Shown piece after piece: positions 7,680-62,351 of a stretch of 64,000 bases of DNA. The DNA lies in assembly GCF_014217605.1 (NCBI RefSeq), contig NZ_CP043639.1, positions 1,263,501 through 1,327,500 on the forward strand, written 5' to 3'. This DNA comes from Sphingomonas sp. NBWT7. GTDB lineage: Bacteria > Pseudomonadota > Alphaproteobacteria > Sphingomonadales > Sphingomonadaceae. How positions within the stretch are numbered: the stretch's first letter is position 1; the number at the start of each line of letters is the position of its first letter. Under the pieces are notes generated by a model, which was given only the letters and a program-made list of their open reading frames with translations, made no database searches and was not told the DNA's origin. The translations under genes and the position numbers were made by a program.

Positions 7680-7704
7680 CAGACGCGTTCCCTTCTGTCC
7701 GGCG

Positions 7705-12701: not shown

Positions 12702-12839
12702 GCTGCCCTCTCCTTGTCCTGTCGTTGTTTGGCAGCAGCGTGCCGCACACCGTCGGTGAATTCGATGCCCGCTGCTTTACGCTACGTCACTGCCCGGCCA
12801 TACCGGCACAAGAACGACGAACGAGCATGGAGAGTGATG

Positions 12840-43540: not shown

Positions 43541-44401
43541 ATGACTGAGATCACCGTCGCTGCGCTGCAGCTCGCCTTCTCCGCCGACATCAATGTTAAC
43601 ATCGCCAACGTCTCCCGCCTGGTGCGTGAGGCCGCGGCGCGGGGCGCGCAGGTGATCCTTCCCCCCGAATTGTTCGAGGGGGAATATTTCTGCCGCGTCG
43701 AGGACGAAGGGCTGTTCGCCAATGCCAAGCCGACCGCCCAGCACAAGGCAGTGCGCGCGATGCAGGCGCTGGCGGCCGAGCTCAAGGTGCATATCCCGAC
43801 GAGCTTCTTCGAGGCCGACGGGCCGCATCACTACAACAGCCTCGCGATGATAGACCCGGACGGCCGTATCCAGGGCGTCTATCGCAAGAGCCACATTCCC
43901 GATGGTCCGGGCTATGAGGAGAAATTCTATTTCCGTCCCGGCAACACCGGGTTCAAGGTGTGGGATGGCCCGACCGCCGCAGATAAGGCGAAGCTTGGCG
44001 TCGGCATCTGCTGGGATCAATGGTATCCCGAGACCGCGCGGGCGATGATGCTGATGGGCGCCGAGGTGCTGTTCTATCCGACCGCGATCGGCAGCGAGCC
44101 GCACGACACGTCGCTCGACACCGCACGGCTGTGGCGGCGCGCAATGGTCGGCCATGCCGTTTCGAACGTGGTGCCGGTGGTGGCGGCGAACCGGGTCGGC
44201 GTGGAGCACGGCCAGACGTTCTACGGCACCAGCTTCATCTGCGACGAACGCGGCGACATGCTGGCGGAGCTCGGGCGCGATGAAGAGGGCGTCATTACCG
44301 CGACGCTCGATCTCGATCGGGTCAAGCGCCACCGCGCCGCTTTCGGCTTCTTCCGCGATCGACGCCCCGAACTCTACGGTCGACTGGTGGCGGATATCTG
44401 A
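43541..44401 (+). CDS. aguB: N-carbamoylputrescine amidase
   Basis: A 286-residue nitrilase-superfamily enzyme that hydrolyses N-carbamoylputrescine to putrescine in the agmatine route. The Glu-Lys-Cys triad is found in LPPELFEGEYFC, YRKSHIPDGPGYEEKFYF and GVGICWDQWYPE; PHDTSLDTARLWRRAMVGHAVSN and FYGTSFICDE fit AguB closely. No agmatine deiminase gene is adjacent. It is the last gene before the mobile region: the tniQ stop is 56 bp further on, in convergent orientation. Confidence 0.9.
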   Translation: MTEITVAALQLAFSADINVNIANVSRLVREAAARGAQVILPPELFEGEYFCRVEDEGLFANAKPTAQHKAVRAMQALAAELKVHIPTSFFEADGPHHYNSLAMIDPDGRIQGVYRKSHIPDGPGYEEKFYFRPGNTGFKVWDGPTAADKAKLGVGICWDQWYPETARAMMLMGAEVLFYPTAIGSEPHDTSLDTARLWRRAMVGHAVSNVVPVVAANRVGVEHGQTFYGTSFICDERGDMLAELGRDEEGVITATLDLDRVKRHRAAFGFFRDRRPELYGRLVADI

Positions 44402-44412
44402 AGGCACTGGCA

Positions 44413-44524
44413 CACCCTTAAAATGACATTGGGCGTCCACCCTCAGAATATAGGACCTAAAGCGGGAGCAATCCAGCTTCACGAAGCTGGCTACGATCCC
44501 ATCCCGTAGCCACAGGAGCAATCC
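44413..44524. repeat. Clustered repeats and hairpins at tniQ 3' end, candidate element terminus
   Basis: CACCCT followed by Y-A-R-AAT occurs at 44413 and again at 44438. GGAGCAATCC occurs exactly at 44465-44474 and 44515-44524, 50 bp apart. Between the latter are two hairpins: CCAGCTTC/GAAGCTGG (44473-44490) and GGCTACG/CGTAGCC (44489-44511). Arrays like this suit transposase-binding sites at a transposon end, but the first part is intergenic and the rest lies inside tniQ coding sequence. The assignment is inference. Confidence 0.4.
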
Positions 44525-46328
44525 CCTCTTTGCGCATCAGCCCGCGGACCTTCTGCGGGGCGACCCCGAGGTTCCAGGCGATCTCGCCGGGCCAGGCGAT
44601 CCGGCGGGCCAGTGCCTCGACCGAGCTGCGGCATGCCCGACCCTTACAGTCGGCGCCGTGACCGAACGCGTCGGCGACCTGGACCAGGTCGCTCGGCTTG
44701 ATGTTCAGCATCTCGGCCGCGTCCCGCTGGCTGAGAAGCTGCGACAGTCCGCCCGGCAGCTTGCGGAGCTCAACTGGCGCGCGCCGGAACGGGCCCAGGT
44801 CGTTCGGACGGACCAGGACGTCGCCGAGATCGCCGGCGGAGCGGGTCATCCAGAACGGGATAGATCCGCCGATCATCGCCGCCAGGATCGTCGACCAGGG
44901 CTTCGGGCCGCCGCCGATGCGGTCGGCCGCCAGCAGGAGCGGCCTGCAACCGGCAGGCGCGGTGCCCGCGATCGCGATCGCGGGAATGCGGGACATGAGG
45001 TGCGCGACGCTGCCCGCCCGAATGCGCATCTCGTCAGTGGCGATCCGGGCGACGAAGTGGTCCTCGACCTCGAGAAGTCCGTCGAGGCAGAGCTGCTCGA
45101 CCCCGTAGACGGGCAGGCGGATGCCATGCGCGACCGAGCGCGCGGTCGTGGCTCCCTGGACGATCGCGGCCAGTCCGTCGATGTAGTCGGCGTCATACTG
45201 GATGAGCTGCCGCTTTGCCGGGGCGGAGATGTGGCGTGCGACGAGATCGGGGTGCGCCTTGAACTTCGCCATCTGCAGGTGGTCGAAACCGAGCCGCCGA
45301 CGGACTTCGGTGTAAAGGTAGTAGCGCTTGGTGGTGACGAGACCGTGCGACGCGTATCGCGCGATGTTGGGGAGCGCCTGCTCGATGAGCGCGGGGACGC
45401 CGGGGTAGGCGAACCTTCCGATCAGGAAGCGCAGGCGGGTCCGCAGCTTCGCGATGGCCTCGATGTCGTTTCCTAGGCCGTAGTCCGCTTCGCGGACCCA
45501 GTCCTGAAGACCGAACGGGAAGGTTCGGAGGAATCCGGCGCCGACAGCCGCGCTCTCCGCGAGGCCCTCGTCCGTCATGGCGGATAGCGAAAAGCGGGAG
45601 GGCGGCTTTGGGGTCGCGCCCGTGGCGATAGTGCCAAGCTGCAGCGCCAGATTGACGAGCCCTTGCGGGTCTACCGTCCTGAGGGGGTCCGGCAGGGCTG
45701 ACCAGGCTTTCGCGACAGAGGCGGCATCGGGTGAAGAAAGGCTGCCGAAGAGGCGATAGCCCTCCGCGAGCCTTTCGGGCAGATGCCGAGCGTCCGAAGG
45801 GGGCACTACCTCGCCGCAGTGGTCGCAGCACCCGATACCTTGCGCGAAGCGCCAGCCCAGCTTGATGTCGCAGCTGGGACAGGTGTCGACAAGCCGTTCA
45901 AGCGACTCGGTGCAGTATGGCAGCAGCAGGTTCATCCAGTGCAAGCGGTGGTAGTTGCGCTTGAGCAACGAACTGGGACCGATGCGCCTGCGGTCGAGTT
46001 CCAGCAATGCCCGGGGGATGACGAGCGTCCCGAATTTCGCATGCACGCTGGATTTGCCGCTGGGTTCGTCGACGCGGATGCCGGCGCGGCCAGCCAGCGC
46101 GGCGGGATCGCACCGGATGACGTAGGCGAGGCGTTCAAGTTCGGCGGGCGTGGCAAGCTGCGCGAGGCCGGTGTTGCGCAGCGAGACGGCCGCGGCCTCG
46201 AATACCGGCTTCGTCACGACGAGGACGTGCTGCCGGACGCCGCGCGCGATGGCGCCCGGGATGCTCTCGTCGTCGTAGAGGTCGACCGGGAAGCGCAGGC
46301 GGCGGCCGCTCGTGCCTTCAGGCGGCAT
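44457..46328 (-). CDS. tniQ: TniQ/TnsD-family target-selection protein
   Basis: A 623-residue TniQ protein, the target-site selector of Tn7-like elements. It has the N-terminal TniQ region with LLKRNYHRLHWMNLLLPYCTESLERLVDTCPSC, a zinc-binding pair CPSC and CCDHCG, and helix-turn-helix-like stretches towards the C-terminus (RDAAEMLNIKPSDLVQVADAF; EIAWNLGVAPQKVRGLMRKEG). The size is near TnsD, which reads a fixed attachment site, more than the short TniQ of CRISPR-linked systems. ATG 46328 follows GAGGAGG and lies close to the tnsC stop. Its 3' end contains hairpins and repeats. Confidence 0.9.
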   Translation of the reverse strand: MPPEGTSGRRLRFPVDLYDDESIPGAIARGVRQHVLVVTKPVFEAAAVSLRNTGLAQLATPAELERLAYVIRCDPAALAGRAGIRVDEPSGKSSVHAKFGTLVIPRALLELDRRRIGPSSLLKRNYHRLHWMNLLLPYCTESLERLVDTCPSCDIKLGWRFAQGIGCCDHCGEVVPPSDARHLPERLAEGYRLFGSLSSPDAASVAKAWSALPDPLRTVDPQGLVNLALQLGTIATGATPKPPSRFSLSAMTDEGLAESAAVGAGFLRTFPFGLQDWVREADYGLGNDIEAIAKLRTRLRFLIGRFAYPGVPALIEQALPNIARYASHGLVTTKRYYLYTEVRRRLGFDHLQMAKFKAHPDLVARHISAPAKRQLIQYDADYIDGLAAIVQGATTARSVAHGIRLPVYGVEQLCLDGLLEVEDHFVARIATDEMRIRAGSVAHLMSRIPAIAIAGTAPAGCRPLLLAADRIGGGPKPWSTILAAMIGGSIPFWMTRSAGDLGDVLVRPNDLGPFRRAPVELRKLPGGLSQLLSQRDAAEMLNIKPSDLVQVADAFGHGADCKGRACRSSVEALARRIAWPGEIAWNLGVAPQKVRGLMRKEGIAPVATGWDRSQLREAGLLPL

Positions 46329-47484
46329 CAACTTCGGCCTCCTCTGCCGCGATCTGCTGGACGGGCACGTATTGGATCGAGAACGGGTCGTGGTCGACCC
46401 AGTCGAGCCCGATGGCGAAGCTGCGCACCGCGTTGCTCAGGTCATAGGCTTCCATCGTCACGGCGGCCCGCGCGAGCGCCTTCGGGAGGGCGACCTCGAT
46501 GATGCGCGCCGCGCGCCCGATGTGACCGCCGGACGCGGTGATCAGGGCGGTGAGGACGTCCGGTTCGGGCAGGCAGGTGGGTGCGGCGATAGCGCCGCGC
46601 CACCTGAGTTCCTTGTCGTATTCGACGCAGAACTTGTGGAACTGCCGTCGATCCGCGACTCTTCCCATGTTCAGGGGCTTGAGCTCGAGCGGATCGCCGA
46701 GGCGCGCCGCGAACTGCTGGTTGAGCTTGAAGAACACCTCCGAAGTCTCGTCCCCTATGAAGAAGAGCGGCACGACGCCGCGGTCGAGGAAGCCCTGCAG
46801 CTTTTTCGTCACGTCGGTGGCGTCGGCCGTGAAGAAGGTGCCGTCGTCCAGGTCGCCGTCGGCGAGCACGCGTTCGGGCTTGGTGACGAGGCGCTGAACC
46901 TCGTCGACGACGACGAGTTCGACGCCGAGCTTTGCGGTCCACTCCTCTACCCGCTGCTCGACGATCTTTACGTTGTCGGTGGACTTGCCCTTGATCTTCT
47001 CGGCCATTTCGGCGGTGACGCGCAGGCCCACTGCGCCCGGCTGGTCGAGGAAGTCGTCGGCGAGACGGTTGAGGATCTCCTGGTATAGCATCTTGAGCGA
47101 CATGCGGGTGTCGATCGTGATGTGGATCACGCGGAAGGGGTTGTGCTGCTCGCCGGCGGCGATCGCCTCCTGCTCGAGTTCGGCGATGAGCCGTTCGACT
47201 ATTGCGCTCTTGCCGGCCTGGCTGAACTGGCTGAGGCGCCGGCCCGGGATGGCGGTGCCCCTGCGCTTCCGCAGCTTCTTACAGAGGCGCATGTATTGGC
47301 GGATCGCCAGGAGGATCGCCCGCTGGCGGTCGGTATCGACCCACATCTCCGCGACGATCGCCTCCGCCTTCTCGGAGCGCGCCTGGGCCGCGGCGTCCCC
47401 GAGATCCGGCTTGGCGCGGCCGGTGACGCGCGCGGGTTTCCTGTAGACGGGGGTCATGGCCGTGTCCGTGGTGGTGCTGGGCAT
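46318..47484 (-). CDS. tniB: TniB/TnsC-family AAA+ transposition ATPase
   Basis: A 388-residue ATPase that links target selection to the transposase. Walker A is the abbreviated FSQAGKSAIVERL, Walker B ELVVVDEVQRL, and a sensor-like VPLFFIGDETSEVFFKLNQQFAARL follows; the C-terminal helices ASGGHIGRAARIIEVALPKALARA fit the TniB/TnsC family. The N-terminus (about 30 residues) is basic and unstructured. Its start ATG shares the A of TGATG with the tnsB stop, and its stop overlaps the tniQ start region, so expression is coordinated. Confidence 0.92.
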   Translation of the reverse strand: MPSTTTDTAMTPVYRKPARVTGRAKPDLGDAAAQARSEKAEAIVAEMWVDTDRQRAILLAIRQYMRLCKKLRKRRGTAIPGRRLSQFSQAGKSAIVERLIAELEQEAIAAGEQHNPFRVIHITIDTRMSLKMLYQEILNRLADDFLDQPGAVGLRVTAEMAEKIKGKSTDNVKIVEQRVEEWTAKLGVELVVVDEVQRLVTKPERVLADGDLDDGTFFTADATDVTKKLQGFLDRGVVPLFFIGDETSEVFFKLNQQFAARLGDPLELKPLNMGRVADRRQFHKFCVEYDKELRWRGAIAAPTCLPEPDVLTALITASGGHIGRAARIIEVALPKALARAAVTMEAYDLSNAVRSFAIGLDWVDHDPFSIQYVPVQQIAAEEAEVDAA

Positions 47485-49679
47485 CAGTCGTCCTCCACTT
47501 CGTCATCGTCTTCGGCGGTGCCGGCCGCGAAATCCCAAGACACGTTGGCCGCGCCCAGGATGGCCTCGTCGTCGCCGAGCTCGCGGGCGACGTCGCGCGA
47601 GGGGTCGGAGCGCAGGTCGTGTCCGCCCTCCCCTACGTCGACCTCGTCACGGGGCTGCGGCGGCGCCTTGGGGACATCGTCGCGCTTGGCGTTGTCGATG
47701 CGCGTCGGGATGCGGAGTTCGGGCACCTGGGCGCAGCCGGGGTTGGCGGCGCGCTTGCCGGACAGGCGCATCTCCTCCTCCGCCAGCAGCTCGACCGGCT
47801 GCTCGCGCTCGCGGAACGACTTGCCGGACAGCGTCCGCTGCTGGTCGTTAAGGTGCTTCGCCTTGTTGCGCAGCCTGTCCTGCTTCGTGGCGCCCTTCCG
47901 CGAGGCGAGCGCCTTCTGGTAGATCCTGTGTTCCCAGCGGCTCAGACCGCCCGTGTAGCCGGGGTCGGTCGACCACATGTAGAAGTATTCCTCGTTCGCC
48001 TCGTCGTAGACCTCGATCATGTCGATGTCGTCGTCCCAGACGCGGGGGATCACCTCGATGCGGGCGGTGCCGGTCAGGCGTTTGCCAAAGGGTGTTCGGT
48101 GGTGGTTCGAGCTGAGCGCCTTGCCGACGCCCGCGCGGTTGAAGCGGTAGTGGACGTTGTCGTAGATCAGGCCGTTGGTGGTCAGCACGCACGGCTTGTC
48201 CGGCACGCTGGCGAGGCTCCGCATGACCTCCTTCGGATCGGTCAGGCGCATCCCGCCGGAACGTATGTGCGCGAGCATGATGTCGTTCGGCGAGCGATTG
48301 CCGAGCGACGTCTTCTGCGTGCTGTTCCAGCGCCGTCGCAGCTGCTCGACGAGGTCGACGTATTGGGCGCGGGTGACCTCGGTCGCGGCGATCGGGTCGT
48401 AGCGGATGGCGTGCCGGACCTGAGGTCCGAGGATTCGGCCCGGGATCATCGCCAGCGCGGCCTTCACATACTTGTGGTAGTTCTCGAGCTTGGACTTGGC
48501 ATCGTGGTGATACGCCTCGGCGAGCTCCACCGTGCTGAGGATCTTGACGGCGCCGGGCACCATGCGCGGAGAGATGAGCGTGCGGTCCCGGTCGATCATG
48601 ACGTCCGACGGCAGGCCGTAGATCATGGCCAGCTCTGGGTTCTCGGCGATCTCCTCTGGGGTCATGGGCGGCGGCATCATCACGCCGCGCAGCGAACGCA
48701 GGCCCCATTGCGGCCGGTAGTTGCCGGCGAACGTCGGGTGCGGTGCGACCCACTGCGAGAAGGAGTCCATCGTGATGACCGACCGCATCTTCGCCGCCGG
48801 GATCCTGAGGTCCTCCGAGTAGTGGACGCTGTGCTCCCATTCGACCCCGTCCATATACATGCGCTCGAAGGGGCGTTCGACCGCGACCGGCTCCCCGCTC
48901 GCCGAGAACTTGCGGTCCGCAGCTGGCGCGCCGTAGCGGGAGGCGTAGGTCGAGTGGCACTCGAGGCTGTTGATGCGGGTGCGCACGCACTCAGAAGACG
49001 GCGGGTTCTCGCTGAGGTATGGGATGCCCATCTCCTTCAGCTCGTCCCAGTCGGCGACGACCATCGCGGCGGCGTCCTCCTTGTGGGCGAGCCGGCCGTT
49101 GAGGCTGTCCGGGCGCCAATACCGCATCGCCCACTTGTGGACGAGCCGGTCCTCGATGTCAGGCAGCTGGCTCTCGCCTTTCTCGCGGCCGGCGGTGCTG
49201 ACGAGCGCGCCGATACGGCCACCATGCAGCTTGAGCTTGCGCATCCAGCGCAGGAGCGAGCGGGGCTGCGGCCGCTTCCCGCCGAGGTTGTTCGCCTTGA
49301 TCCAGGTCAGGGCATCGTCCTCGGTTTTCTTAATGCCCGCCCTGATCGCGGCATCCGCCCAGTCGTAGCGCCAGCCGGACTTGGGATCGAGGGACTCGTA
49401 CGCGGGCCGGTCGAGCGTGAGGTTGGTCTCGTTCCGGTCGGTGACGTGCGCGTTGTAGTCGGGATCGACGACGACGCCTGCACGGAACTGCTCGATGATC
49501 CAGCCGACGGTGATTAGGCCGAGGACGGCGTCGCGTCCCAGCGGCACCGTGACGATCTCCTCCTTGCCGTCGATGTAGCGGAAGAGCAGGACGCCGTCGC
49601 CGCGGCTCTCCTCGAAGCGCATCTTGCGCTTGCCGAACTTCAGGATGTGCCCCTCGGGCAACCAGAACGGGATGTTCAC
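47484..49679 (-). CDS. tniA: TnsB/TniA-family DDE transposase
   Basis: A 731-residue transposase of the Mu/TnsB type. N-terminal DNA-binding helices are followed by an RNase H-like domain with a full acidic triad: Asp277 in MYMDGVEW, Asp363 in VMIDRDRTL and Glu399 in KLENYHKYV, the last two 36 residues apart as in D,D-35-E enzymes. A beta-barrel domain and a charged acidic C-terminal tail (AEDDDEVEDD) follow, probably for TnsC contact. The start is GTG 49679 behind GAGGAG, 11 bp after tnsA. Catalytically intact by inspection. Confidence 0.94.
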   Translation of the reverse strand: MNIPFWLPEGHILKFGKRKMRFEESRGDGVLLFRYIDGKEEIVTVPLGRDAVLGLITVGWIIEQFRAGVVVDPDYNAHVTDRNETNLTLDRPAYESLDPKSGWRYDWADAAIRAGIKKTEDDALTWIKANNLGGKRPQPRSLLRWMRKLKLHGGRIGALVSTAGREKGESQLPDIEDRLVHKWAMRYWRPDSLNGRLAHKEDAAAMVVADWDELKEMGIPYLSENPPSSECVRTRINSLECHSTYASRYGAPAADRKFSASGEPVAVERPFERMYMDGVEWEHSVHYSEDLRIPAAKMRSVITMDSFSQWVAPHPTFAGNYRPQWGLRSLRGVMMPPPMTPEEIAENPELAMIYGLPSDVMIDRDRTLISPRMVPGAVKILSTVELAEAYHHDAKSKLENYHKYVKAALAMIPGRILGPQVRHAIRYDPIAATEVTRAQYVDLVEQLRRRWNSTQKTSLGNRSPNDIMLAHIRSGGMRLTDPKEVMRSLASVPDKPCVLTTNGLIYDNVHYRFNRAGVGKALSSNHHRTPFGKRLTGTARIEVIPRVWDDDIDMIEVYDEANEEYFYMWSTDPGYTGGLSRWEHRIYQKALASRKGATKQDRLRNKAKHLNDQQRTLSGKSFREREQPVELLAEEEMRLSGKRAANPGCAQVPELRIPTRIDNAKRDDVPKAPPQPRDEVDVGEGGHDLRSDPSRDVARELGDDEAILGAANVSWDFAAGTAEDDDEVEDD

Positions 49680-49689
49680 GGGCTTCTCC

Positions 49690-50778
49690 TCAGGCCGGGA
49701 CGTGGCGGGCGAGGAAGGCGCGCAGGGCCCCCCTCTTGGCGGGGGGCGGGATGGTGACGGGCGTGTCGGGCATCGGCGGCGCGGTGAGCGGCATCGAGAC
49801 GAGCCGGTCGAACATCATGGCGCGGGCGATGTCGAGTGACAGCCGGGGGTGTTCGCCGATCGCGGCGATGACGCCGCATAGCGACGTGGTGCCACCCGAG
49901 GCGAGGATCGCCGTCCGGACGCGGGCAGCGTGCGCTTCATCGTATTCGGTGCGGCGAGCGTCGAAGATGTCCTTGACGACGCGGCGCTCCAGTGCGGTCG
50001 GCAAGCCGCCGGCGACGCGGCGTTCGAGACGTGCGCCGTGCTCCGCGAGATATTCCTCGGCGAAGTCCAGCCGCTCGTCGAGTTCGGGATCGGCGAAATA
50101 ATCCTCGCACGCCTTGTCCTCGCCGAACACGACGGTGCCGTCCTGCAGTTCCACGCCCCAGTCGAGGGTCATCCAGTTCAGGCGGCCGTCCACCGTCGTC
50201 CACTTGATGCGGACGGGCTGGTATTGGATGTCGGTCCTGACCGGATCGACCTCGTCCCTCCGGAACCCGAAGGTCTCGTGCGGACCTTCGAAATACTGGT
50301 CGCGCCCGGCCTTCTCGCTGAACGCGGCGGTCATCGACTGGAAGGACGCGTAGCGGAAGTTGATGCGCACCGCGCCGAGCCCGCGGTCGGCGACCAGCCG
50401 CGTGCCTTGCCGGTCGGGACGCTCCATCGGGCGGGGCTGGCCCGCGTCGCGCCGGTCGCGGCGGGGCGGCGACCACGCGGGCCGGGGCTGCGGCCGGAAC
50501 GGCAGGATCTCCATTGGGTGCCGGAGGCGGATGCCGGGTGGCAGCGCCAGCGCCACGGCCGGCACGGGTCGGGCGCCAGCCGCCGGGTCGGGCGCCGCTG
50601 CGTCGACCGGAATGCCTGCCGTGGACGACGAGCCCGTCCGACCGGATATGCCTGCGCTGCCGCGACCCTGGCGCCGCCGCACCGGAGGCGCCCCCTCTGC
50701 GTTGGCGACGCCGGTCGACGCGGACGCGTCGGCCGGGCCGGCCTGCCCCGCGGCCCGCTTGCGTTTCGCATGGTTCAA
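49690..50778 (-). CDS. TnsA-like endonuclease of the Tn7-type element
   Basis: A protein of about 362 residues whose C-terminal half fits TnsA. It shows DQYFEGPHETFGF, DIQYQPVRIKW, a DGRLNWMTLDWGVELQDG strand pair and FGEDKACEDYF, which correspond to the E..QP..T-x-D..E-x-K layout of TnsA nucleases that cut the 5' strand for excision. The N-terminal 88 residues are Ala/Pro/Arg-rich and likely disordered. I set the start at TTG 50778, behind GGAAGGG, because third-position G/C stays high to that point; ATG 50514 is the conservative alternative. Directly upstream of tnsB. Confidence 0.72.
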   Translation of the reverse strand: MNHAKRKRAAGQAGPADASASTGVANAEGAPPVRRRQGRGSAGISGRTGSSSTAGIPVDAAAPDPAAGARPVPAVALALPPGIRLRHPMEILPFRPQPRPAWSPPRRDRRDAGQPRPMERPDRQGTRLVADRGLGAVRINFRYASFQSMTAAFSEKAGRDQYFEGPHETFGFRRDEVDPVRTDIQYQPVRIKWTTVDGRLNWMTLDWGVELQDGTVVFGEDKACEDYFADPELDERLDFAEEYLAEHGARLERRVAGGLPTALERRVVKDIFDARRTEYDEAHAARVRTAILASGGTTSLCGVIAAIGEHPRLSLDIARAMMFDRLVSMPLTAPPMPDTPVTIPPPAKRGALRAFLARHVPA

Positions 50779-50971
50779 CGGAGGGCGCCCTTCCGGGCGG
50801 CTTGCAATTGGTGGATCATACTGCTTCCCCGTTCGGAGAGAGCGTGCGTCGGCGTTCCGCCGACCGCGGGCACGGTCTCGGTCAACCGGGCCTGCGAACC
50901 CGGATGGGGACGCGGCATCGCGTCCCGTTTTCGGGATCGGCCGCCCGCGATGCAGGCGACCGCGGTCGGCG

Positions 50972-51247
50972 CTAGGTGGTATCGCCTCCGATGTGCATCC
51001 GACCGACCCCCTCGTGGGGCACGGTGGCCCCACAGGGGGTGGTGACGCCACTGGACCCGTGGACCACCTTGTGGCGGAGGTCGGCCTCATCGTGGGTGAG
51101 GCTGTCGACGCGCCGGGCGCGGCGGTCAGCCGGCCTGCCGGTGTCGTCGGGCAGCGAGCCGCGCACAACGCGCGCATGGCCGCCGACGTCGACGTGGTGG
51201 CGCGCTGCGGTATCGTCGGCGGCGCGAGGCAGGTGGTTCTTCTCCAT
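50972..51247 (-). CDS. Small protein upstream of tnsA, unknown (member of array)
   Basis: A 91-codon frame starting MEKNHLPRAADDTAARHH at ATG 51247 behind a strong GAGAGGAG site (4-5 bp spacing). The product is rich in His, Arg, Asp and Gly and has no hydrophobic segment. It is the last of four short minus-strand frames that precede tnsA, each with its own ribosome-binding site and each starting with M followed by charged, Arg/His-rich residues. Function unknown; coding status is inferred from the signals and arrangement. Confidence 0.5.
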   Translation of the reverse strand: MEKNHLPRAADDTAARHHVDVGGHARVVRGSLPDDTGRPADRRARRVDSLTHDEADLRHKVVHGSSGVTTPCGATVPHEGVGRMHIGGDTT

Positions 51248-51308
51248 GGTGGCTCCTCTCGGGCTCGGGCGCCCGCGACCTGTTGCTATCGGTGGGTGAG
51301 TGGAGGCG

Positions 51309-51572
51309 TCAGCCGTCGGTTGTTCCGCCGCGCTGGTCGAAGGCGTCGGCCGCGATCGGCACCTCGGCCATCCGGTCTGGCCGGCCGACGAGGAAGTTCG
51401 GCGGCGCGGCCTCGGTCGGGTTGCGCCTGTTGGCGCGGCGGAAGCTCCGGCCGGTGAGCGGGACGAAGTGATGGTATAGATGTCCGCGCGAGAGGCTCGC
51501 CCGTCCTCTGGCGGTGACATGTCCCGCGGCGATGCGGCTGACGGCGTTGCGGGACTTGCGGTGGGACTTCAT
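51309..51572 (-). CDS. Small Arg-rich protein, unknown (member of array)
   Basis: An 87-codon frame beginning MKSHRKSRNAVSRIAAGHV at ATG 51572, preceded by AAGGAAA. It contains 18 or so Arg and Lys, a HLYHHFVPLTGRSFRRANRRNP centre and an acidic end (VPIAADAFDQRGG). The start M-K-S-H-R-K resembles M-K-N-H-R-R of the next frame upstream (51838), so the two may be related or serve the same role. No family recognised. Likely DNA- or RNA-binding by charge, but that is inference. Confidence 0.55.
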   Translation of the reverse strand: MKSHRKSRNAVSRIAAGHVTARGRASLSRGHLYHHFVPLTGRSFRRANRRNPTEAAPPNFLVGRPDRMAEVPIAADAFDQRGGTTDG

Positions 51573-51628
51573 CGGACGGGTTTCCTTGCTGGCGGCGTGG
51601 TTGGAAGGTGGGGCGTAGGGCCCGAGGC

Positions 51629-51838
51629 TCAGCGTTCGCGGAAGGCGATGCCGGTCGGAGCGACGATCGCGGCGGTCATGCCGCGGCTGGCTCCCACGCC
51701 GACCCACGGGTCGGCCTCCGTGCTGGGACGTAGGTGCCCAGCGGGTGGCCGGAGCGAGCGCGGGCCGTAGCGGTCGCTGTATGCGCCCGAGGGTGCCTTC
51801 CTCTTGAAGTGGCGGCGGGTGCGGCGATGGTTCTTCAT
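51629..51838 (-). CDS. Small Arg-rich protein, unknown (member of array)
   Basis: A 69-codon frame beginning MKNHRRTRRHFKRKAPSG at ATG 51838, behind GAGGAG with 8-bp spacing. The first 16 residues are almost entirely basic; the rest has GAYSDRYGPRSLRPPAGHLRPS and a hydrophobic-Gly tail (GMTAAIVAPTGIAF). The N-terminus echoes that of 51309-51572. Position and signals favour a real gene. No known family. Confidence 0.6.
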   Translation of the reverse strand: MKNHRRTRRHFKRKAPSGAYSDRYGPRSLRPPAGHLRPSTEADPWVGVGASRGMTAAIVAPTGIAFRER

Positions 51839-51978
51839 TCCATTTTCTCCTCTGCAGTGGGGGACGTCCGATAGTGGCGTCGATCGGTGGATGGTGGTGG
51901 CCGGCGTGGTCAGTTGCCCGCCGCGGTCGCTTCCGGTCGACGGCTCCATCGCGGATGCCGCTCCTTGCGGGGCAGCGC

Positions 51979-52137
51979 TCACGATCCGGGCGTCGGGCTG
52001 CGGCGGCGCGCGGGGCCGATGACCTGCCGGCGGCCGAGGCGATGGCGACGCCGCCCGGCATGCTTCGCCTGCGCTGCCATCGCCCTGCGCATCAACATCG
52101 TCACCAGAGTCTCGATCTCGGTCGCTTCCATCGTCAT
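51979..52137 (-). CDS. Small basic helical protein, unknown (first of array)
   Basis: A 52-codon frame, MTMEATEIETLVTMLMRRAM then AAQAKHAGRRRHRLGRRQ, starting at ATG 52137 (or ATG 52131). The N-terminal half is an amphipathic Met/Leu-rich helix and the C-terminal half is Arg/His-rich. The GGAAAGTGGGG ribosome-binding region coincides with one arm of the inverted repeat at 52146-52226, so control through that repeat is plausible. It is the first gene downstream of the divergent control region on this strand. Confidence 0.5.
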   Translation of the reverse strand: MTMEATEIETLVTMLMRRAMAAQAKHAGRRRHRLGRRQVIGPARRRSPTPGS

Positions 52138-52145
52138 TCCCCACT

Positions 52146-52226
52146 TTCCACGGTGAATTGAATAACGGCTAGATGGCGATGGATGTCGGATCGCGCAACA
52201 GCTTTTTTATTCATATCCCCGTGGAA
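52146..52226. promoter_or_regulatory. Symmetric divergent control region (inverted repeat)
   Basis: TTCCACGGTGAATTGAATAA (52146-52165) and its inverted partner TTATTCATATCCCCGTGGAA (52207-52226) match at 17 of 20 positions around a 41-bp centre. Each arm reads outward as AT-rich then CCGTGGAAA, placing similar leaders before the minus-strand array (first ATG 52137) and the plus-strand gene (52267). It could be a pair of promoters or operators, or a protein-binding terminus. The centre includes a T-run (52203-52208). Confidence 0.6.
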
Positions 52227-52266
52227 ACTGGTAGCGTTGCTGCGTTAAGCATTGTAGGCCGCAGGG

Positions 52267-53535
52267 ATGGGCGAATTCGGGAAGCCAGGATTAGGGACGA
52301 ATGGTCGCGCCGAGGGTCGGGCCAGGGCGGCGGGAAAGGAGCGCGGAGGCTCCGGGACCGGCGAATCGGGCGCGCTCTCGGCCGAATCGGGCGTGGCCGA
52401 TGCGCCGGTCGACCTGGAGACGCTGCTGATGCGCCCGCCGACCGAGGAAGAGGCGCGGTCCTGGGCTGTCCTGTCGCCTGCGCTGCGCACGCGGGCGGTA
52501 GACCGCATCACCTTGCTGCGGCGGTGGTGGGGCGAGCGCGACGGGCTGACCGCGAAGGAGGCGGCCGCGATGGCGGGCGTCATCCCCAACCGCTTCTACC
52601 AGATGGCCGCCGCGTGGAAGCGGGCGCCGGGCCTGGCGGCGGTGGGCGCCTTCGCGGGAACGCCGGCGCCGCGATCCCCCCGCATCCATCCCCTGGTCAA
52701 TGCCTCCCTGCAGGCCAATGTCGTGAAGGTCGTGGCCGACGGCGGCGGCAAGTCGGTCGAGGCGATGCGCCGCCGTCTGGAGGAGCTTGTCGCGGCCGAT
52801 CTGCGCGCGCGTCAGTTGGCCGAGACCGGATCGTCCGGCGCCGGACCGGCGATCCCGTCGCCCACCGTCGTGCGCGCCGTCATCACCCGCGAGCTGAACC
52901 GCGTCGGCGAGGCTCAGCTGCTCGGCGAGTCGATCGCGATGGACTGCTGCCCGACCGCGATGCGCTCGCCGACGGGCGAGCCGTGGGCGTTGTTCGCGAT
53001 CATCGACCGCGGCACGCTGCGCATCCTCGGCACGTCCGTGGGATCGCTCGACGACAGCGTCGAGGGCTACTCGCTCGCCGCCAGGCGCGCGCTGGTCGCG
53101 CTCGCCCCGGTCGGGCCGAGCCTTGGCCCCTGGGCCCGCCGGACCCGGCGCGTGGACATGGTGGTCGGCCGGGACGAGGCCGCATGCGATGCGCTGATCG
53201 CGCGCTATGGGAATGTCGAGGGCGCGATCGAGTTCAAGGCGGTGACGCGGCCGCGGCGGTTCGGCTCGATGCTTCGGCGGTATGTGGGGGAGCGCATGGG
53301 CCGGGTGGACTTGAGGCCCGGCTGGGCGACTGCGGCGCCTCCGATGGCGGACGGGGACCCGGCGTTCGCCAGGTGGGATGCCTGGGAGCGCACGGACTTC
53401 GAGGCGCAGGCGTGGAACGAGGCGAAGGTGATCGAGCGCGCTGCCAAGGGCCATGACCGTCCGCCGGACGAACTGGTGGCGCTGATCCGTCTGCTGGTCG
53501 GCGACGGTCAGATCGATCCGGGCACGCTGCGCTAG
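52267..53535 (+). CDS. HTH plus degenerate RNase H-like (transposase-like) protein A
   Basis: A 422-residue protein I do not recognise as a named family. Residues about 85-120 are a helix-turn-helix (GLTAKEAAAMAGVIPNRFYQM, then AAAWKR). Residues about 220-320 look like an rve/TnsB-type core: IAMDCCP with Asp226, a strand pair GEPWALFAIIDRGTLRILG, and DMVVGRDEAA where the catalytic Asp is replaced by Gly-Arg-Asp. The later stretch RRFGSMLRRYV has no Glu where TnsB has KLENYHKYV. It thus seems a catalytically dead transposase relative. It converges with a distant paralogue, sharing CTAG at the stops. Confidence 0.7.
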   Translation: MGEFGKPGLGTNGRAEGRARAAGKERGGSGTGESGALSAESGVADAPVDLETLLMRPPTEEEARSWAVLSPALRTRAVDRITLLRRWWGERDGLTAKEAAAMAGVIPNRFYQMAAAWKRAPGLAAVGAFAGTPAPRSPRIHPLVNASLQANVVKVVADGGGKSVEAMRRRLEELVAADLRARQLAETGSSGAGPAIPSPTVVRAVITRELNRVGEAQLLGESIAMDCCPTAMRSPTGEPWALFAIIDRGTLRILGTSVGSLDDSVEGYSLAARRALVALAPVGPSLGPWARRTRRVDMVVGRDEAACDALIARYGNVEGAIEFKAVTRPRRFGSMLRRYVGERMGRVDLRPGWATAAPPMADGDPAFARWDAWERTDFEAQAWNEAKVIERAAKGHDRPPDELVALIRLLVGDGQIDPGTLR

Positions 53536-54548
53536 CCGCGCCTCGCGGCGTTGTGCGCCGCGACCGCCAGATCGACGGCCGTGACGGCGTCGTCCGGCGA
53601 CAACGGCCTCCACGGTCCCGCCTTCCGCGCCGCATGGCTGCGGTGTCGTATCGGGATGCTGTCGATATAGCTGCCGAGCGTGGTCGACAGCAGCGTGGAT
53701 CGGCGGACCACCTGTATGCGCGCGTCCCGCGCGCCCGCGCACGGGACATCGGTCGTCACCGAGTCTGCATGCCCGTCGCGAGCGACGGCGCCGGCGAGCG
53801 TGGCGACCACGGTCACCCGCCGATGATGCTCCGCGACGATCTGTGCCACTAGCGGGCGCGCCGCGGCGACCACGTCGCCGTCGATCACGAGGCGATGCCC
53901 GACGATGACGCCGCCCGGACGCTCCACCGCCAGGACGAGTTCGGGTGTCGCGACCGTTCCGTCGCCGGCCATGACCGGCAGCAGGCACTCGACGACGGCG
54001 ACCGCGACGTCGTCGACCGGTCCGGCCGCAGCGCCCGACTGCGCCTGGCGCGCCCGCATCATGGCCTTGTGCACAAGCCCGGATGATGGCGGCGCGATGC
54101 CGGCGGCGGCACACACGGAGCGCACCTCGGCGCGCACGTCGGTGAAGCGCGCTTCCGTGCCCCGCCGCCCGATCACCCGGTCCATGATGGCCCGGGCGTC
54201 GTCCGCGACCGGGCGCGCGCCGTGCTGGTCACGCGTGTCGCCGCGGCGACCGTTGTGGCCGCTGACGAGTCGGGCGTCGCGGTGCTTCTTCCATGCCGAC
54301 ACGAGCCGGTAGAAGTGGGAGACGGTGACCCCCATCCGCGCCGCGGCCGCAAGCGCCTCGCTGCGGGGGTGGCGGCCGTTCGCGCACCATGCGCGCAGGA
54401 TCGCGACGCGTTCGCGGGTATCGGCCCAGTGCAGCGGATCGATCCCCGTCAGATCGACGTCGGCCGAGACGGCTTCGTGCCCGGCCAACAGCGTGGCGCG
54501 CGCGTCCGCGCGCCGGGACGCGAGGCGTCCTTCTTCGATGTCGCTCAT
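53532..54548 (-). CDS. HTH plus degenerate RNase H-like (transposase-like) protein B
   Basis: A 338-residue protein that parallels protein A at 52267 block by block: RVAILRAW..., the HTH EALAAAARMGVTVSHFYRLVSAWKKH, a hinge PPSSGLVHKAMMRAR (A has IPSPTVVRAVITREL), strands VVECLLPVMAGDG and PELVLAVERPGGVIVGHRLV (A has IAMDCCP... and WALFAIIDRGTLRILGTSV), and STTLGSYIDSIPIRHRSH (A has GSMLRRYVGERMGRVDLRPGW). Catalytic acids of a DDE enzyme are absent or not in register. Probably a DNA-binding accessory protein. No family name is claimed. It starts at ATG 54548. Confidence 0.7.
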   Translation of the reverse strand: MSDIEEGRLASRRADARATLLAGHEAVSADVDLTGIDPLHWADTRERVAILRAWCANGRHPRSEALAAAARMGVTVSHFYRLVSAWKKHRDARLVSGHNGRRGDTRDQHGARPVADDARAIMDRVIGRRGTEARFTDVRAEVRSVCAAAGIAPPSSGLVHKAMMRARQAQSGAAAGPVDDVAVAVVECLLPVMAGDGTVATPELVLAVERPGGVIVGHRLVIDGDVVAAARPLVAQIVAEHHRRVTVVATLAGAVARDGHADSVTTDVPCAGARDARIQVVRRSTLLSTTLGSYIDSIPIRHRSHAARKAGPWRPLSPDDAVTAVDLAVAAHNAARRG

Positions 54549-55651: not shown

Positions 55652-55946
55652 CGCCGGGCCTATCGTCGGATCGTTAAAGAACCGGCACTCGCCAGTTGGC
55701 GGCGCGAAGGGCGATGGAATGCGACCAGGACCACGGCCATCGTCAGTATCACTGCCGACGAGGCGGCGGACGGCGGGGGATGGTCGCGCCGATCGCTGAC
55801 TCCGGCCGACTGCCGCGCTCTTCCGGGCGTCATGTCGGCGCGCACGGCGCCGCTGGATCGGTTCGGGTTGCTCGCGCGCGCAGGTCACCGCACAAGTGGG
55901 CTGACACATCGTCTGCGGAGCGGTGGGATTCTCGAAGGGGTGGTGG

Positions 55947-57278
55947 ATGGACGGAGCGGATGGACTGATGGCGGACGGCGCCTCGACCGCGGCAGGTGGA
56001 GCCCCCCACGCCGACAGCGGCTTCACCCTCGTCCGCAGCGGCGACCACGGGACGCAGCAGCTGGACTGGGACAAGGGTCCCGAGCATGTGCGCAAGGCGC
56101 TGGGCGAGGCGCTCGGCGCGCGCAACGTCGCGTTCCTGCTGGGCGCGGGCTGCTCGTCGATGATGAAGGACGGCACCGAGCGCGGCATCGCCACGATGGC
56201 GCCGTTGGCGGCGGAGTTCTGCGGTGCGGCCGGCGCCGCCGCGGGCGGCCCCGCTTGGGCGCTCGACGCATCCGACCTGTCATGCCTGGCGGGGCACGGC
56301 CTCACCCTGGCCGGCGACTACACGCGCAACCTGGAACGGCTGATGGAGACGCTGCATGCGCTCCGGTTCGTGCTGTCGCGGAGCGACGACGCCGGGGACG
56401 TGGACGAGGTCGCGACGATCGACGGCATGATCGCCAAGATCCAGGCGTTCCTGTGGGAGCGGTGCACGGCCGGGGCCTTCGCCAGCGGCGACGACCAGGT
56501 GCTCGGCCTCTACGAATCCTTCTACCGCCGCTTGGTGCTGCGCGACCGCTCGCTGCCCCGGCCCTGGATCTTCACGACGAACTACGACCTGTTCAGCGAA
56601 CGGGCGATGGACCGTCTGGGGCTGCCATACGCGAACGGGTTCTCAGGCGTCGTCGAGCGCCGCTTCAATCCGGCGACGTTCAGATACGCTCTCGCCGAGC
56701 AGCTCGACATCTCGAACCGCAAGTGGTCGGCGGTCGACGGATTCGTGTACCTGTGTAAGCTGCACGGCTCGATCAGCTGGACGGAGGACGACCACGGGCT
56801 CTTCCCGATCCGCGAGACCTGGCCCCAGACCGCGCCTTCGAAGGTCATGATCTTCCCAACGCCGGCGAAGCAGAACTCGAGCCTCGGGTCGCCGTATTCC
56901 GACCTGTTCCGCGAGTTCCAGTCGCGCATCGTCCGAGAGCAGAGCGTCCTGATCACCATGGGCTACGCCTTCGGCGACGAGCACCTGAACAACATTATCT
57001 ACCAGGCGCTGACGATCCCGACCTTCAGGCTCATCGTCTTCGCCGATCCGGGTTCGGGCGGCGACATCGCCAAGCTGCGTGCGCTGGCCGATCCGCGCAT
57101 CTGGATCATCGGCGGGTCGGGGCCGCCCGACGGCGCACCCGCCCATTACTTCAGCACCATCGTCGAGCACCTGCTGCCGCGACGCCCGTCCGACAGGATC
57201 GACGACGCGGTGAAGCTGGTGCTCCAGACCATGGCCGCCGGCTCGGCCGCCGCCGCGGTGCCGACCGATGACGACTGA
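55947..57278 (+). CDS. SIR2-domain effector of SIR2-HerA defence
   Basis: A 443-residue protein with a SIR2-like NADase domain. The nucleotide loop is FLLGAGCSSMM (Gly66-Ala67-Gly68), the TNYD motif is FTTNYDLF with Asn212 and Asp214, and the catalytic His273 is in KLHGSISW. GYAFGDEHLNNIIYQAL near the end fits the SIR2_2 group. The next gene, overlapping by 11 bp, encodes a HerA ATPase; the pair is the known anti-phage SIR2-HerA system, in which SIR2 depletes NAD+ on infection. ATG 55947 follows AAGGGG; GTG 55923 would add eight residues. Confidence 0.9.
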   Translation: MDGADGLMADGASTAAGGAPHADSGFTLVRSGDHGTQQLDWDKGPEHVRKALGEALGARNVAFLLGAGCSSMMKDGTERGIATMAPLAAEFCGAAGAAAGGPAWALDASDLSCLAGHGLTLAGDYTRNLERLMETLHALRFVLSRSDDAGDVDEVATIDGMIAKIQAFLWERCTAGAFASGDDQVLGLYESFYRRLVLRDRSLPRPWIFTTNYDLFSERAMDRLGLPYANGFSGVVERRFNPATFRYALAEQLDISNRKWSAVDGFVYLCKLHGSISWTEDDHGLFPIRETWPQTAPSKVMIFPTPAKQNSSLGSPYSDLFREFQSRIVREQSVLITMGYAFGDEHLNNIIYQALTIPTFRLIVFADPGSGGDIAKLRALADPRIWIIGGSGPPDGAPAHYFSTIVEHLLPRRPSDRIDDAVKLVLQTMAAGSAAAAVPTDDD

Positions 57279-59274
57279 CGATAGGCGCCGCGCCATCGGC
57301 TCGGTCGTCGCGGTCGCGGCCGACAGGTTCGTCATCGAGATGCATGGCGGCACGGACAGCTTCACCGTGGTCGGCTTCGACGACGTGCATTACGTCGCCC
57401 GCCTGGGATCGTTCGTCATGATCCCGGCTCAGGCCGAGTATGTGGTGGCCGAGATCGTGGGGCTTCGCGAGCGCGACGCCGGCGCCGGTGGCGAGATGGA
57501 CAAGGCCGGCTCGGCCAAGTTCCTGGACGTCGTGCCCGTGGGCATGCTGCCCGTGGAGGGCGGCAGGTTCCGCTTCGGCGTCTCCGTTTTCCCCTCCCTC
57601 TACGCTGATGCCCTCTACGCCCTGGACAAGGAGCTGGACCGCATCTTCGACACGAGCCCGGCGTCGGAAAGGTCGTCGGGTCCCGACGGCGGCGACTGCG
57701 TGCCGGCCGAGGCGACCCGTCTGCGCATCCTGGAGATCGGACAGTCGGTCGTCTTCGAGGATTACCGGGTCAAGGTCCGCATCGACGAGTTCTTCGGAGG
57801 TCATGCAGCGGTGCTGGGCAACACCGGAAGCGGCAAGTCGTGCACGGTCGCGTCGATCCTGCAGGAGCTGTTCGACAAGCCCGACGAGCACCATGCCAGG
57901 GGCGCGACCTTCGTCGCGCTCGACGTAAACGGCGAATACCACCAGGCGTTCGGCAGGCTGGCCGCGGCAGGCGTGATCGGCGTGGATCGGCTGGTGCTCG
58001 ACGGCACGGCCGCCGCCGACCGGTTCAGGATCCCGCACTGGTTCCTGGACCTGTCGGAATGGGAACTGCTGCTTCAGGCGAGCGAGCGCACGCAGGTGCC
58101 GATCCTGCGCATGGCGCTTGGCCTGGCGACGCTGTTCGGGGGCGCGGCCGACGGACAGCTGAACGACATCCGCAACCACATCCTCGCCAAGTGCATCACC
58201 CAGATCCTGTCCGACGAGAGCCCGCCCGGTGCCAAGGAGACGCGGATCCTCGGCATCCTGCAGCGCTTCAGGACCGCCGAGATCAATTCGGGCACGATCG
58301 GGGCAATGGTGCACACGAATTACGGCAACATGGCCAATATCGAGGACGCGTTCGCGTATCTCGTCGGCGAAGATGGCGATGGCGGCTATGTCATCGACGA
58401 CTTCAAGCTGCCCGACTATTCCAACAGTCCGTTCGACTTTGAGACGCTGGGTGACGCGATCGACCTGGCGCTGCTCTACGAGGAGGCGCACGGCAACCGC
58501 CAGATCCGCGACTATTGCTCGCAGATGGTCACGCGCTTCAAGGCGCTGCTGGAGCGCGAGGATTACGCCTTCCTGCGCCACCCGGCGGCGGGCGCGACGA
58601 GGGACACCGGGCCGTTCCTAGCGCGGCTGCTGGGCCTGGGCGCTCAGAACGGCTGCCATGTGAAGGCGTCGCAGGTCGTGATCATCGACATGAACGCGGT
58701 CGAGGATGAGGTCGTGGAACTCGTCAGCGCGGTGGTCGCGCGCATGGTATTCAGGCTGCTGCGGCGCGCCGACCCCCGCAGCCGCTTTCCCGTCCACCTG
58801 CTGCTGGAGGAGGCGCACCGCTACATCTCGTCCACGCCGTCCCGCTATGCGCTGGACGCCGGCCGGGTGTTCGAGCGGATCGCGAAGGAGGGCCGCAAGT
58901 ATGGCCTGTTCCTGCTGGTGGCGTCGCAACGGCCGAGCGAGCTGTCGAAGACCGTGCTGTCGCAATGCTCGAACTTCGTCGTGCACCGCATCCAGAACCC
59001 CGACGACCTTTCGCAGATCAGGCAGATGTCGCCGTCGATATCGGACGGCGTGCTGCGCCGGTTGCCGACGCTGCCCAAGCAGCACGCGCTCGTGTTCGGC
59101 AACTCGGTCAACCTGCCGACCACCTTCAAGGTCCGGAGCGCCGATCCGCTGCCGGCAAGCGACGACGCGAAGATCGTCGACTTGTGGTTCCACGAGGCCG
59201 GACGCAAGGCGGGCATCACGCTCTCGCCTGCGCCTGCAGACCTGGCGGATGAAGGGGAACAACCGTTCCCGTAA
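57268..59274 (+). CDS. HerA-like ATPase of SIR2-HerA defence
   Basis: A 668-residue HerA/FtsK-type ATPase. An N-terminal HAS-barrel region (IGSVVAVAADRFVIEMHGG and following strands) is followed by Walker A GNTGSGKS at residues 184-191, FVALDVNGEYHQAFG, the Walker B strand LLLEEAHRYIS with Glu514/Glu515, and GLFLLVASQRPSELSKTVLSQC with sensor residues. HerA assemblies of this kind form hexamers that bind the SIR2 partner. The start overlaps the SIR2 stop by 11 bp. It converges with the Qat operon 62 bp away. Confidence 0.92.
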   Translation: MTTDDRRRAIGSVVAVAADRFVIEMHGGTDSFTVVGFDDVHYVARLGSFVMIPAQAEYVVAEIVGLRERDAGAGGEMDKAGSAKFLDVVPVGMLPVEGGRFRFGVSVFPSLYADALYALDKELDRIFDTSPASERSSGPDGGDCVPAEATRLRILEIGQSVVFEDYRVKVRIDEFFGGHAAVLGNTGSGKSCTVASILQELFDKPDEHHARGATFVALDVNGEYHQAFGRLAAAGVIGVDRLVLDGTAAADRFRIPHWFLDLSEWELLLQASERTQVPILRMALGLATLFGGAADGQLNDIRNHILAKCITQILSDESPPGAKETRILGILQRFRTAEINSGTIGAMVHTNYGNMANIEDAFAYLVGEDGDGGYVIDDFKLPDYSNSPFDFETLGDAIDLALLYEEAHGNRQIRDYCSQMVTRFKALLEREDYAFLRHPAAGATRDTGPFLARLLGLGAQNGCHVKASQVVIIDMNAVEDEVVELVSAVVARMVFRLLRRADPRSRFPVHLLLEEAHRYISSTPSRYALDAGRVFERIAKEGRKYGLFLLVASQRPSELSKTVLSQCSNFVVHRIQNPDDLSQIRQMSPSISDGVLRRLPTLPKQHALVFGNSVNLPTTFKVRSADPLPASDDAKIVDLWFHEAGRKAGITLSPAPADLADEGEQPFP

Positions 59275-59335
59275 CGCTCCGCCTGCAGGATGTGGGTGCT
59301 CGCTTGACCCTCCGGAGGCTTGATGCCCAAGCGGT

Positions 59336-60106
59336 CTAGACGGCGCTGACGAGCGAGCGGAGGTTTGACACGATCACCTTCGCCAGTTCGCCCGGCACCA
59401 TGCCCTTGAGGGTGGCTAGCTCCCCGACCGTGTCGATCACCGACGGCGGCCGCGCCGGCGCTCCGTCCATCTCGACGAACGGGCCGTCGGTTTCCGTCAA
59501 AAGACGGTCGAGCGGCAGGCCCGCCACTAGTTCGCGATGCTTGTCCGATCGTAGCATCTCGCGATTGATTGAGAAGTAGCAGCCCATAGCCGCGGCGCGG
59601 CGCGCCTCGGCGGGCGTTCCGGTGAACCAGTGGAGAATGACGCGCCCACGATCCTGCGGCAGCGCGGCCTCGATGTGGCCGAGCACCTTCGGCACCGAGC
59701 GCACGCTGTGAACCGTCAGGATCTTCCCGCCCTGCTCGGCGCAGGCGCGCAGGATGCGTTCGAAGACCCGCTCCTGTTCCGGGAAGCTGCGGTAGAAGCG
59801 CGGCCCCGCGTCTAGTCCGATCTCGCCGACGTAGCGCGCGTCCGGCAGCAATGCCTCGAACAGCGGCAGCTCCCCGGCGCGTTCCGCCACCAGCTGCGGA
59901 TGCAGCCCGAGCGCCACGCGGACGTGCTGCGACCGGGACGCCAGCTCCCGGTTGCGCTTCCAGGCCTTGGGCGTGGTGGTGACGGCCAGCGTCGCGACCC
60001 GTTCCCGGTCGCATTCGGCGATCACCGCGGCGTGGTCCCGATACAGGTCCAGGTGGCAGTGGAAGTCGACCCAGCGCGGCGGCGGACGGGTGGTTGCGGT
60101 GGTCAT
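59336..60106 (-). CDS. qatD: TatD-family DNase QatD of the Qat defence system
   Basis: A 256-residue TatD-type metal-dependent hydrolase. Ligand motifs are VDFHCHLDLY (HxH), VALGLHPQL, YVGEIGLDAG, TVHSVRSV, HWFTGTP and LTETDGPFVEM. It is the last gene of qatA-qatB-qatC-qatD; its ATG overlaps the qatC stop (ATGA). In Qat systems this subunit is a TatD nuclease and all four genes are needed for anti-phage activity in reported cases. Its place after a QueC-like gene, rather than in a housekeeping setting, identifies it. Confidence 0.92.
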   Translation of the reverse strand: MTTATTRPPPRWVDFHCHLDLYRDHAAVIAECDRERVATLAVTTTPKAWKRNRELASRSQHVRVALGLHPQLVAERAGELPLFEALLPDARYVGEIGLDAGPRFYRSFPEQERVFERILRACAEQGGKILTVHSVRSVPKVLGHIEAALPQDRGRVILHWFTGTPAEARRAAAMGCYFSINREMLRSDKHRELVAGLPLDRLLTETDGPFVEMDGAPARPPSVIDTVGELATLKGMVPGELAKVIVSNLRSLVSAV

Positions 60107-62348: not shown

Positions 62349-62351
62349 GGC

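Follow-up and report, generated by a model that had tools for sequence, protein, structure and literature searches.

The Mu repressor and the transposase MuA share operator sites, and phage immunity regions are exchangeable control regions. Tn7-like elements are known to have recruited both target selectors and transcription factors of unrelated origin. According to the available portions of the respective papers, TnsF of Tn6022 is an inactivated tyrosine recombinase that a Tn7-like transposon co-opted as a target selector with TniQ (PMC10293859), the MerR protein CvkR of type V-K CAST represses tnsB via an inverted-repeat motif (PMC9938897), and RtaC and RtbC are Xre regulators of type I-F3 CRISPR-associated transposons (PMC11406308). 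In the locus described here, it is the transposase itself that seems to have undergone duplication and inactivation, and the resulting partner module appears to travel between elements independently of the machinery that it would control. A pair of dead TnsB-like proteins is not named in the available portions of these three papers or of a cargo survey (PMC8649781), and no description of one was found among titles and the opening parts of abstracts, chiefly of open papers.

The stretch of DNA analysed (the window) spans 64,000 nucleotides of the Sphingomonas sp. NBWT7 genome. Its genes A and B belong to a 52 kb Tn7-like element in which tnsA, tnsB, tnsC and tniQ are all present (Table 1). Like TnsB of Tn7 and ShCAST, and like MuA, the A and B proteins have an HTH followed by an RNase H-like core. 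Unlike TnsB, both have lost the catalytic triad, the C-terminal part of TnsB lies outside their aligned range, and an intact TnsB is encoded alongside them.

Table 1. Features of the Tn7-like element and the A/B pair, in window coordinates.
Feature	Position	Strand	Remarks
Gene A	52267..53535	+	422 aa; HTH ~71-119, helical hinge, RNase H-like core ~222-386; D226 and D247 kept, second Asp is G301, Glu lost
Gene B	53532..54548	-	338 aa; HTH 38-89, hinge, shorter RNase H-like core ~180-337; no catalytic residue kept
Left candidate site of operator-like inverted pair 5' of A	52142..52167	+	17/20 complementary; arms 52145-52164 / 52208-52227
Right candidate site of inverted pair	52205..52230	-	starts 63 bp from left site
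Conserved leader element (possibly structured RNA), ~90 nt	50818..50907	-	~250 bp 5' of chosen tnsA start; found at tns loci only
tnsA-like endonuclease gene	49690..50565	-	start picked by codon usage
tnsB	47484..49679	-	catalytic D277, D363 and E399 kept
tnsC (TniB/AAA)	46318..47484	-
tniQ	44457..46331	-	624 aa
Left terminal inverted repeat	44405..44434	+	partner end 52.1 kb off, beyond the window, at genome position C1:1360027 (window-coordinate 96527)
5-bp target duplication GAAGG	44400..44404		second copy directly after far end, 8 bp from 3' end of tRNA-Lys gene

The convergent A and B open reading frames overlap by 4 nt. Their GC content at third codon positions is 0.89 and 0.88, respectively, and their codon-position GC pattern is that of the adjoining tns genes. 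BLASTP between A and B, with masking and composition correction off, gave 33.5 bits (E 6e-6) with the best match in the HTH region, and 0 of 300 shuffled controls scored equally well. Alignment of a 17-row A profile with an 18-row B profile gave E 3.4e-21 over 282 columns, so that A and B are homologous over the HTH, hinge, RNase H-like core and C-terminal helix. An initial annotation of the window had called them convergent distant paralogues that align in order over the HTH, a hinge, two beta strands and a C-terminal helix; both statements were upheld, as was the homology whose absence it had named as the contrary outcome. The genome of origin holds a single copy of A. In Pfam, A has no HTH match and the HTH matches of B fall under the gathering score; neither protein matches a MerR or Xre type domain, and the whole-protein fold matches TnsB-like proteins. 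Pfam and PADLOC yielded no function for A or B.

The predicted models of A and B have modest confidence (pLDDT 74.6 and 71.6, respectively). Foldseek returned 11 matches below E 0.001 for each model, and every one of these is a chain from a TnsB or a MuA complex (best E 7.5e-7 for A and 1.1e-6 for B), and the unrelated fold that had been named as a refutation was not found. When the structures were re-aligned, many integrases among the families listed scored level with TnsB; TnsB and MuA are the best solved-structure matches of A, and for B they are tied with integrases. The degenerate RNase H-like cores of the two models resemble those of TnsB, MuA and retroviral integrases. When sequences of solved structures were searched with the A profile, two weak matches appeared, both unrelated.

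Profile comparison with TnsB, one of the checks that the initial annotation had suggested alongside structure prediction, relates both proteins to it (hhalign E 9e-5 and probability 59 for A; E 3e-5 and probability 73 for B). The alignments end at residue 454 of the 731 TnsB residues for A and at residue 335 for B. An earlier iterated profile was open to TnsB entry and was discarded for this comparison. Controlled iterated profiles, built without Tns open reading frames, matched four TnsB rows with A and five with B (best E 3e-7 for a set size of 10000). The same profiles matched no TnsA, TnsC or TniQ row, left most TnsB rows unmatched and had matched no TnsB row before iteration.

Residue Asp226 of A aligns with the first catalytic residue of TnsB, Asp277, and Gly301, of a Gly-Arg-Asp stretch, aligns with the second, Asp363. 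The TnsB residue Glu399 stands opposite a gap in A. Residues Asp226 and Asp247 are invariant across 17 A rows, and in TnsB the D, D and E are kept in all 12 aligned rows. In B of the window an Ala faces Asp226 of A in the profile alignment, and no acidic column is listed as conserved in the RNase H part of 18 B rows; Asp180 of B is almost invariant among close relatives. The RNase H part is unrecognisable in the B proteins of loci L022 and L023. These columns agree with the earlier description of A, in which the first Asp is kept, the second is replaced by Gly-Arg-Asp and the Glu is missing, and of B, in which no clear triad was seen. Both proteins have the RNase H-like fold of a DDE transposase and a sequence relation to TnsB, and lack the DDE triad. 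The earlier suggestion of domestication is thus borne out: fold, profiles and residue columns support the view that A and B are domesticated, catalytically dead TnsB/Mu-type transposases. Together with the tree below, fold and profiles also support the view that both descend from a transposase of the TnsB type through loss of catalysis and a duplication.

Element ends were sought in two ways. When eight elements were searched without restriction, three of them (G000, G059 and G187) had their ends among the top matches, each beside a tRNA. A search confined to the neighbourhood of tRNAs in 15 elements found inverted ends with an exact 5-bp duplication in six (the window's element and five others), and not in the remaining nine. 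The six delimited elements adjoin tRNA-Lys (one), tRNA-Cys (two) and tRNA-Arg (three). One of them, G884, was delimited only at a threshold of 13/22, which random left positions in two other genomes sometimes reach; by eye, its ends improve with a one-base gap. In G081 the tRNA is instead a tRNA-Gly, on the tniQ side. A far end considered for the window's element near 97,790 proved to be an inverted chromosomal block, and the true end lies at 96,527. A Tn5053 end pattern, tried at the left end, gave no result.

Convergent A/B pairs in which tnsA lies 5' of A were found at 26 loci (the window, L002-L004, L016-L024, L093, L095, L098, L100, L101 and L144-L151), a count biased by the fact that most of them were found by searching with A. 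In all 26, A adjoins and diverges from tnsA. The A and tnsA open frames lie within ~210 bp of each other or overlap in 14 of 25 loci (L019 excluded), and in L016 A and B are separated by 1.1 kb. A search of 298 family genomes with a TnsB profile, itself built from pair-bearing loci, gave 19 long matches (18 of at least 370 bits, and the split match in G059). One of these loci, L094, is cut by a contig end; among the 18 that could be assessed, the pair is present in 15, L099 has a single B-like gene, and L096 and L097 have none beside tnsA. The pair is also absent from the tns genes of L152, its absence here and in L096 and L097 being judged within the fetched stretch. The search beside Tn7-like operons that the initial annotation had recommended thus supports the presence of the pair there.

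Wider searches found A/B-type matches in two of 385 genomes of the class (the genome of origin and one of its own genus) and in 19 of 296 of the order. Two order-wide matches outside the family (G340 and G369) lie in transposase genes, and the match in G423 lies in TnsB. The three named loci are from Sphingomonas. As the family was scanned in part, the range of the pair is a lower bound. At L018, a third gene of the A/B family (6350-7690; a 447-aa open frame) stands beside the usual pair, and L002 holds fragments of a further B-like gene (12615-13519).

A tree of 38 rows from 19 loci, from which L144-L151 were left out, is divided by a 97/91 branch into 18 A rows on one side and 19 B rows with the third gene of L018 on the other. 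The two clades are arranged as would be expected from one duplication. Distance matrices over 21 loci gave a rho of 0.68 between A and B, and of 0.51-0.69 among TnsA, TnsB, TnsC and TniQ (0.51 for TniQ and TnsC). In comparisons of A or B with TnsA, TnsB, TnsC or TniQ, rho lay between -0.13 and 0.01, and 16 loci gave the same picture. Between the window and L002, A is 82% and B 70% identical, and TnsB is 21% identical. The ten locus pairs with the most similar A proteins have TnsB identities of just 14-44%.

Topology tests revealed the same conflict. The clade of the window, L002, L003 and L004 was rejected by the AU test on the TnsB tree (p 2e-58) and the TnsC tree (p 9e-31), and that of L095, L100 and L101 was rejected on both (p 0.0003 and 0.001, respectively). 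The A tree in turn rejects the core groups of L003, L093, L095 and L150 (p 5e-5) and of L146 and L147 (p 0.0025). These p-values are optimistic, because the groups were chosen after the distance matrices had revealed the conflict. The window and L002 are similar at the nucleotide level from ~0.9 kb before A until shortly beyond the B start, and again, separately, at the leader element. In genome G450, two elements have TnsB proteins that are 74% identical and A and B proteins that are 26-27% identical, and their site sequences differ. At the level of sequence comparison, these results show that the A/B pair is co-inherited independently of the tns core and is swapped between elements as a unit.

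One alternative is that A and B act as an accessory target selector like TnsE or TnsF, which would bind targets of a second kind, such as plasmid or phage DNA, and bring TnsABC to them. The available part of PMC10293859 describes TnsF, a dead recombinase, as a demonstrated Tn7 selector and selectors as modular, and HTH proteins are kept beside tns genes. Both TnsF and A/B are dead recombinases in Tn7-like elements, although the fold differs. Targets were compared in nine loci with an assigned tRNA, comprising the six delimited elements and L003, L100 and L101, for which the first tRNA in a suitable orientation was taken; G043 and G205 also have an assigned tRNA and were excluded. Pairs with the same target were more alike in TniQ (p 0.007) and in TnsA, TnsB and TnsC (p 0.011-0.013), but not in A (p 0.97) or B (p 0.98); the six delimited loci alone gave nothing significant (TniQ p 0.25; TnsB p 0.10). 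L101 groups with the window in both the TnsB and the TnsC tree, and there, too, the first suitable tRNA is a tRNA-Lys. Across the nine, the target tRNA appears to track the core genes and not A/B, and choice of the tRNA by A/B finds no support there. Furthermore, co-divergence is seen between TniQ and TnsC but not between either of them and A or B, and the candidate sites described below sit at the promoter region of A itself. A role as a target selector seems unlikely.

Upstream of A, the window contains two inverted candidate sites. They were sought with an imposed arm length of 20 and a start spacing of 48-85. Such a pair occurs at 15/20 or better in seven of 25 loci and at 17/20 or better in four, compared with 0.7% and none, respectively, of 300 shuffles in two-base blocks. 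In the control region upstream of B, two of 24 loci reached 15 (3.1% of 288 shuffles) and none reached 16. A looser search gave z > 3 in 32% of the 25 loci and 4% of 50 control windows. The seven loci are the window, L003, L004, L018, L147, L148 and L151, with spacings of 53-82; the pair lies between the A and tnsA open frames in L004, L018 and L148, and farther upstream in L151. The other 18 loci, L002 included, have no pair at 15/20, which may reflect faster decay, another geometry or a wrong idea. Of the site pairs in the G450 elements, only that of L147 passes the threshold.

Site scores exceeded those of the next best place in 26-81 kb of sequence (window 46 versus 29, L002 42 versus 28, L003 45 versus 32, L004 44 versus 31). 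The window and L004 were scanned over both known ends, and there the two sites are the sole good copies, with none at an end; for L003 the far end is unlocated, and for L002 the contig ends early. By eye, a matched change is seen, with GAATAA in both window sites and GACTAA in both L002 sites; the L002 pair as a whole scores 14/20, inside the shuffle range. The A-upstream region gave no promoter match, and blastn among upstream regions gave no clear motif shared by the window with L003 or L004. The initial annotation had suggested that A and B bind element DNA. Their HTHs and the inverted site pair upstream of A in seven of 25 loci lend this idea indirect support.

It is proposed, with a probability of roughly 45%, that A and B form a transposase-derived, exchangeable operator-binding module that controls tns expression. 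As a DNA-binding pair, A and/or B would recognise the two inverted ~20-bp sites that lie where A and the tns operon diverge. Their RNase H-like cores would pair both sites as a transposase pairs two ends, and the paired sites would loop or block the promoter, keeping tnsABC-tniQ and A itself low. Since the pair would carry its own operator, it could be swapped between elements without matching the remaining machinery, like phage immunity regions. The proposal draws on the dead TnsB-like fold combined with an HTH, the divergence of A from tnsA at every pair locus, the co-divergence of A and B without the core, and site pairs that exceed shuffles in seven loci and are absent from the ends of the window and L004. 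CvkR and RtaC/RtbC are likewise DNA-binding regulators kept with transposition genes; they are MerR and Xre proteins from other sources, whereas a regulator made of A and B would derive from the transposase itself, as two proteins. The use of transposase-type DNA binding for control and the modular swap recall the Mu repressor and phage immunity, a likeness by analogy that does not place A and B as members of either.

Several observations count against this role in expression control. In the window, the sites are separated from tnsA by small open reading frames and by the leader element, and a single transcript reaching tnsA is putative. Most loci (18 of 25) lack the site pair, that of L151 is displaced, and a promoter match is missing. 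No pair accompanies the tns genes in the fetched stretches of L096, L097 and L152, and only one B-like gene is present in L099. The proposal also leaves the invariance of Asp226 and Asp247, and the need for two convergent genes, unaccounted for.

The initial annotation had also considered modulation of TnsB, and a related alternative is that A and B act in or on the transpososome, binding the ends or mixing with TnsB as a structural partner or dominant-negative inhibitor. Fold and domain order do match TnsB over the HTH and RNase H parts. However, A and B do not co-diverge with TnsA, TnsB, TnsC or TniQ, the loci with the most similar A proteins have dissimilar TnsB proteins, and the alignments stop well before the end of TnsB; direct contact is unsupported, and control of tns expression appears to fit better. 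The A-upstream sites are missing from the ends of the window and L004, and some B proteins (L022, L023) have no recognisable RNase H part, which makes a transpososome role improbable as well. It is still less probable that A and B serve competition, as exclusion of or defence against related elements or invading DNA, instead of control of their own element. The similar cores and divergent A/B of the G450 elements, and the defence-rich cargo that adjoins the pair, would suit such a role; the loss of the catalytic triad, the lack of a PADLOC match and the position of the pair beside tnsA in 26 of 26 loci, not among the cargo, argue against it.

The G450 elements, with their divergent A/B and sites, would also fit control of tns expression if A/B decide who represses whom, although this is a single case. 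In a more specific and rather doubtful form of that proposal, the pair would be an exchangeable immunity region, in which a heteromeric repressor of two dead transposases pairs two pseudo-ends at the tns promoter, and swapped specificity lets related elements coexist in one cell without mutual repression. If correct, control of tns expression by A/B would explain how Tn7-like elements limit their own movement and coexist. It would also supply insertion tools of the Tn7 type with naturally occurring on/off parts, and modular immunity in transposons could be put to a clear genetic test.

Beyond the pair, cargo on the A/B side (window 55923-63986) encodes a SIR2-HerA system and a Qat system (QatC and QatD by PADLOC), and a KAP ATPase there fits QatA. 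Six relatives were compared for the block of genes that includes tRNA-Lys and lies past the far end of the element (L026:12741-12816; window 43541-44401). In four of them it has the opposite orientation and comes after the nitrilase-like gene, so that a chromosomal rearrangement took place at the element site. A 100-nt tRNA-Arg(cct) prediction lies inside element cargo at L025:17315-17414. In L021, L144 and L145, tnsB is split over two frames and is perhaps frameshifted or decayed.

Six other tns loci carry DNA that is 77-94% identical to the leader element of the window. In L003, L094, L095 and L096 the end of the element directly precedes the start of tnsB; in the window, L002 and L147 the element is close to the 5' side of tnsA. 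A model of it (R1) found four of 249 family genomes, all four hits being at tns loci, and seven of 35 loci searched. Rfam gave no match up to E 1, and covariation is weak (two of 24 pairs). The predicted last hairpin holds a GGAG-like stretch. Between A and tnsA, the minus strand of the window (~50972-52137) carries a run of small basic open reading frames, for example at ~51309-51575, and one such frame shows 49% identity with L002 across 97 residues.
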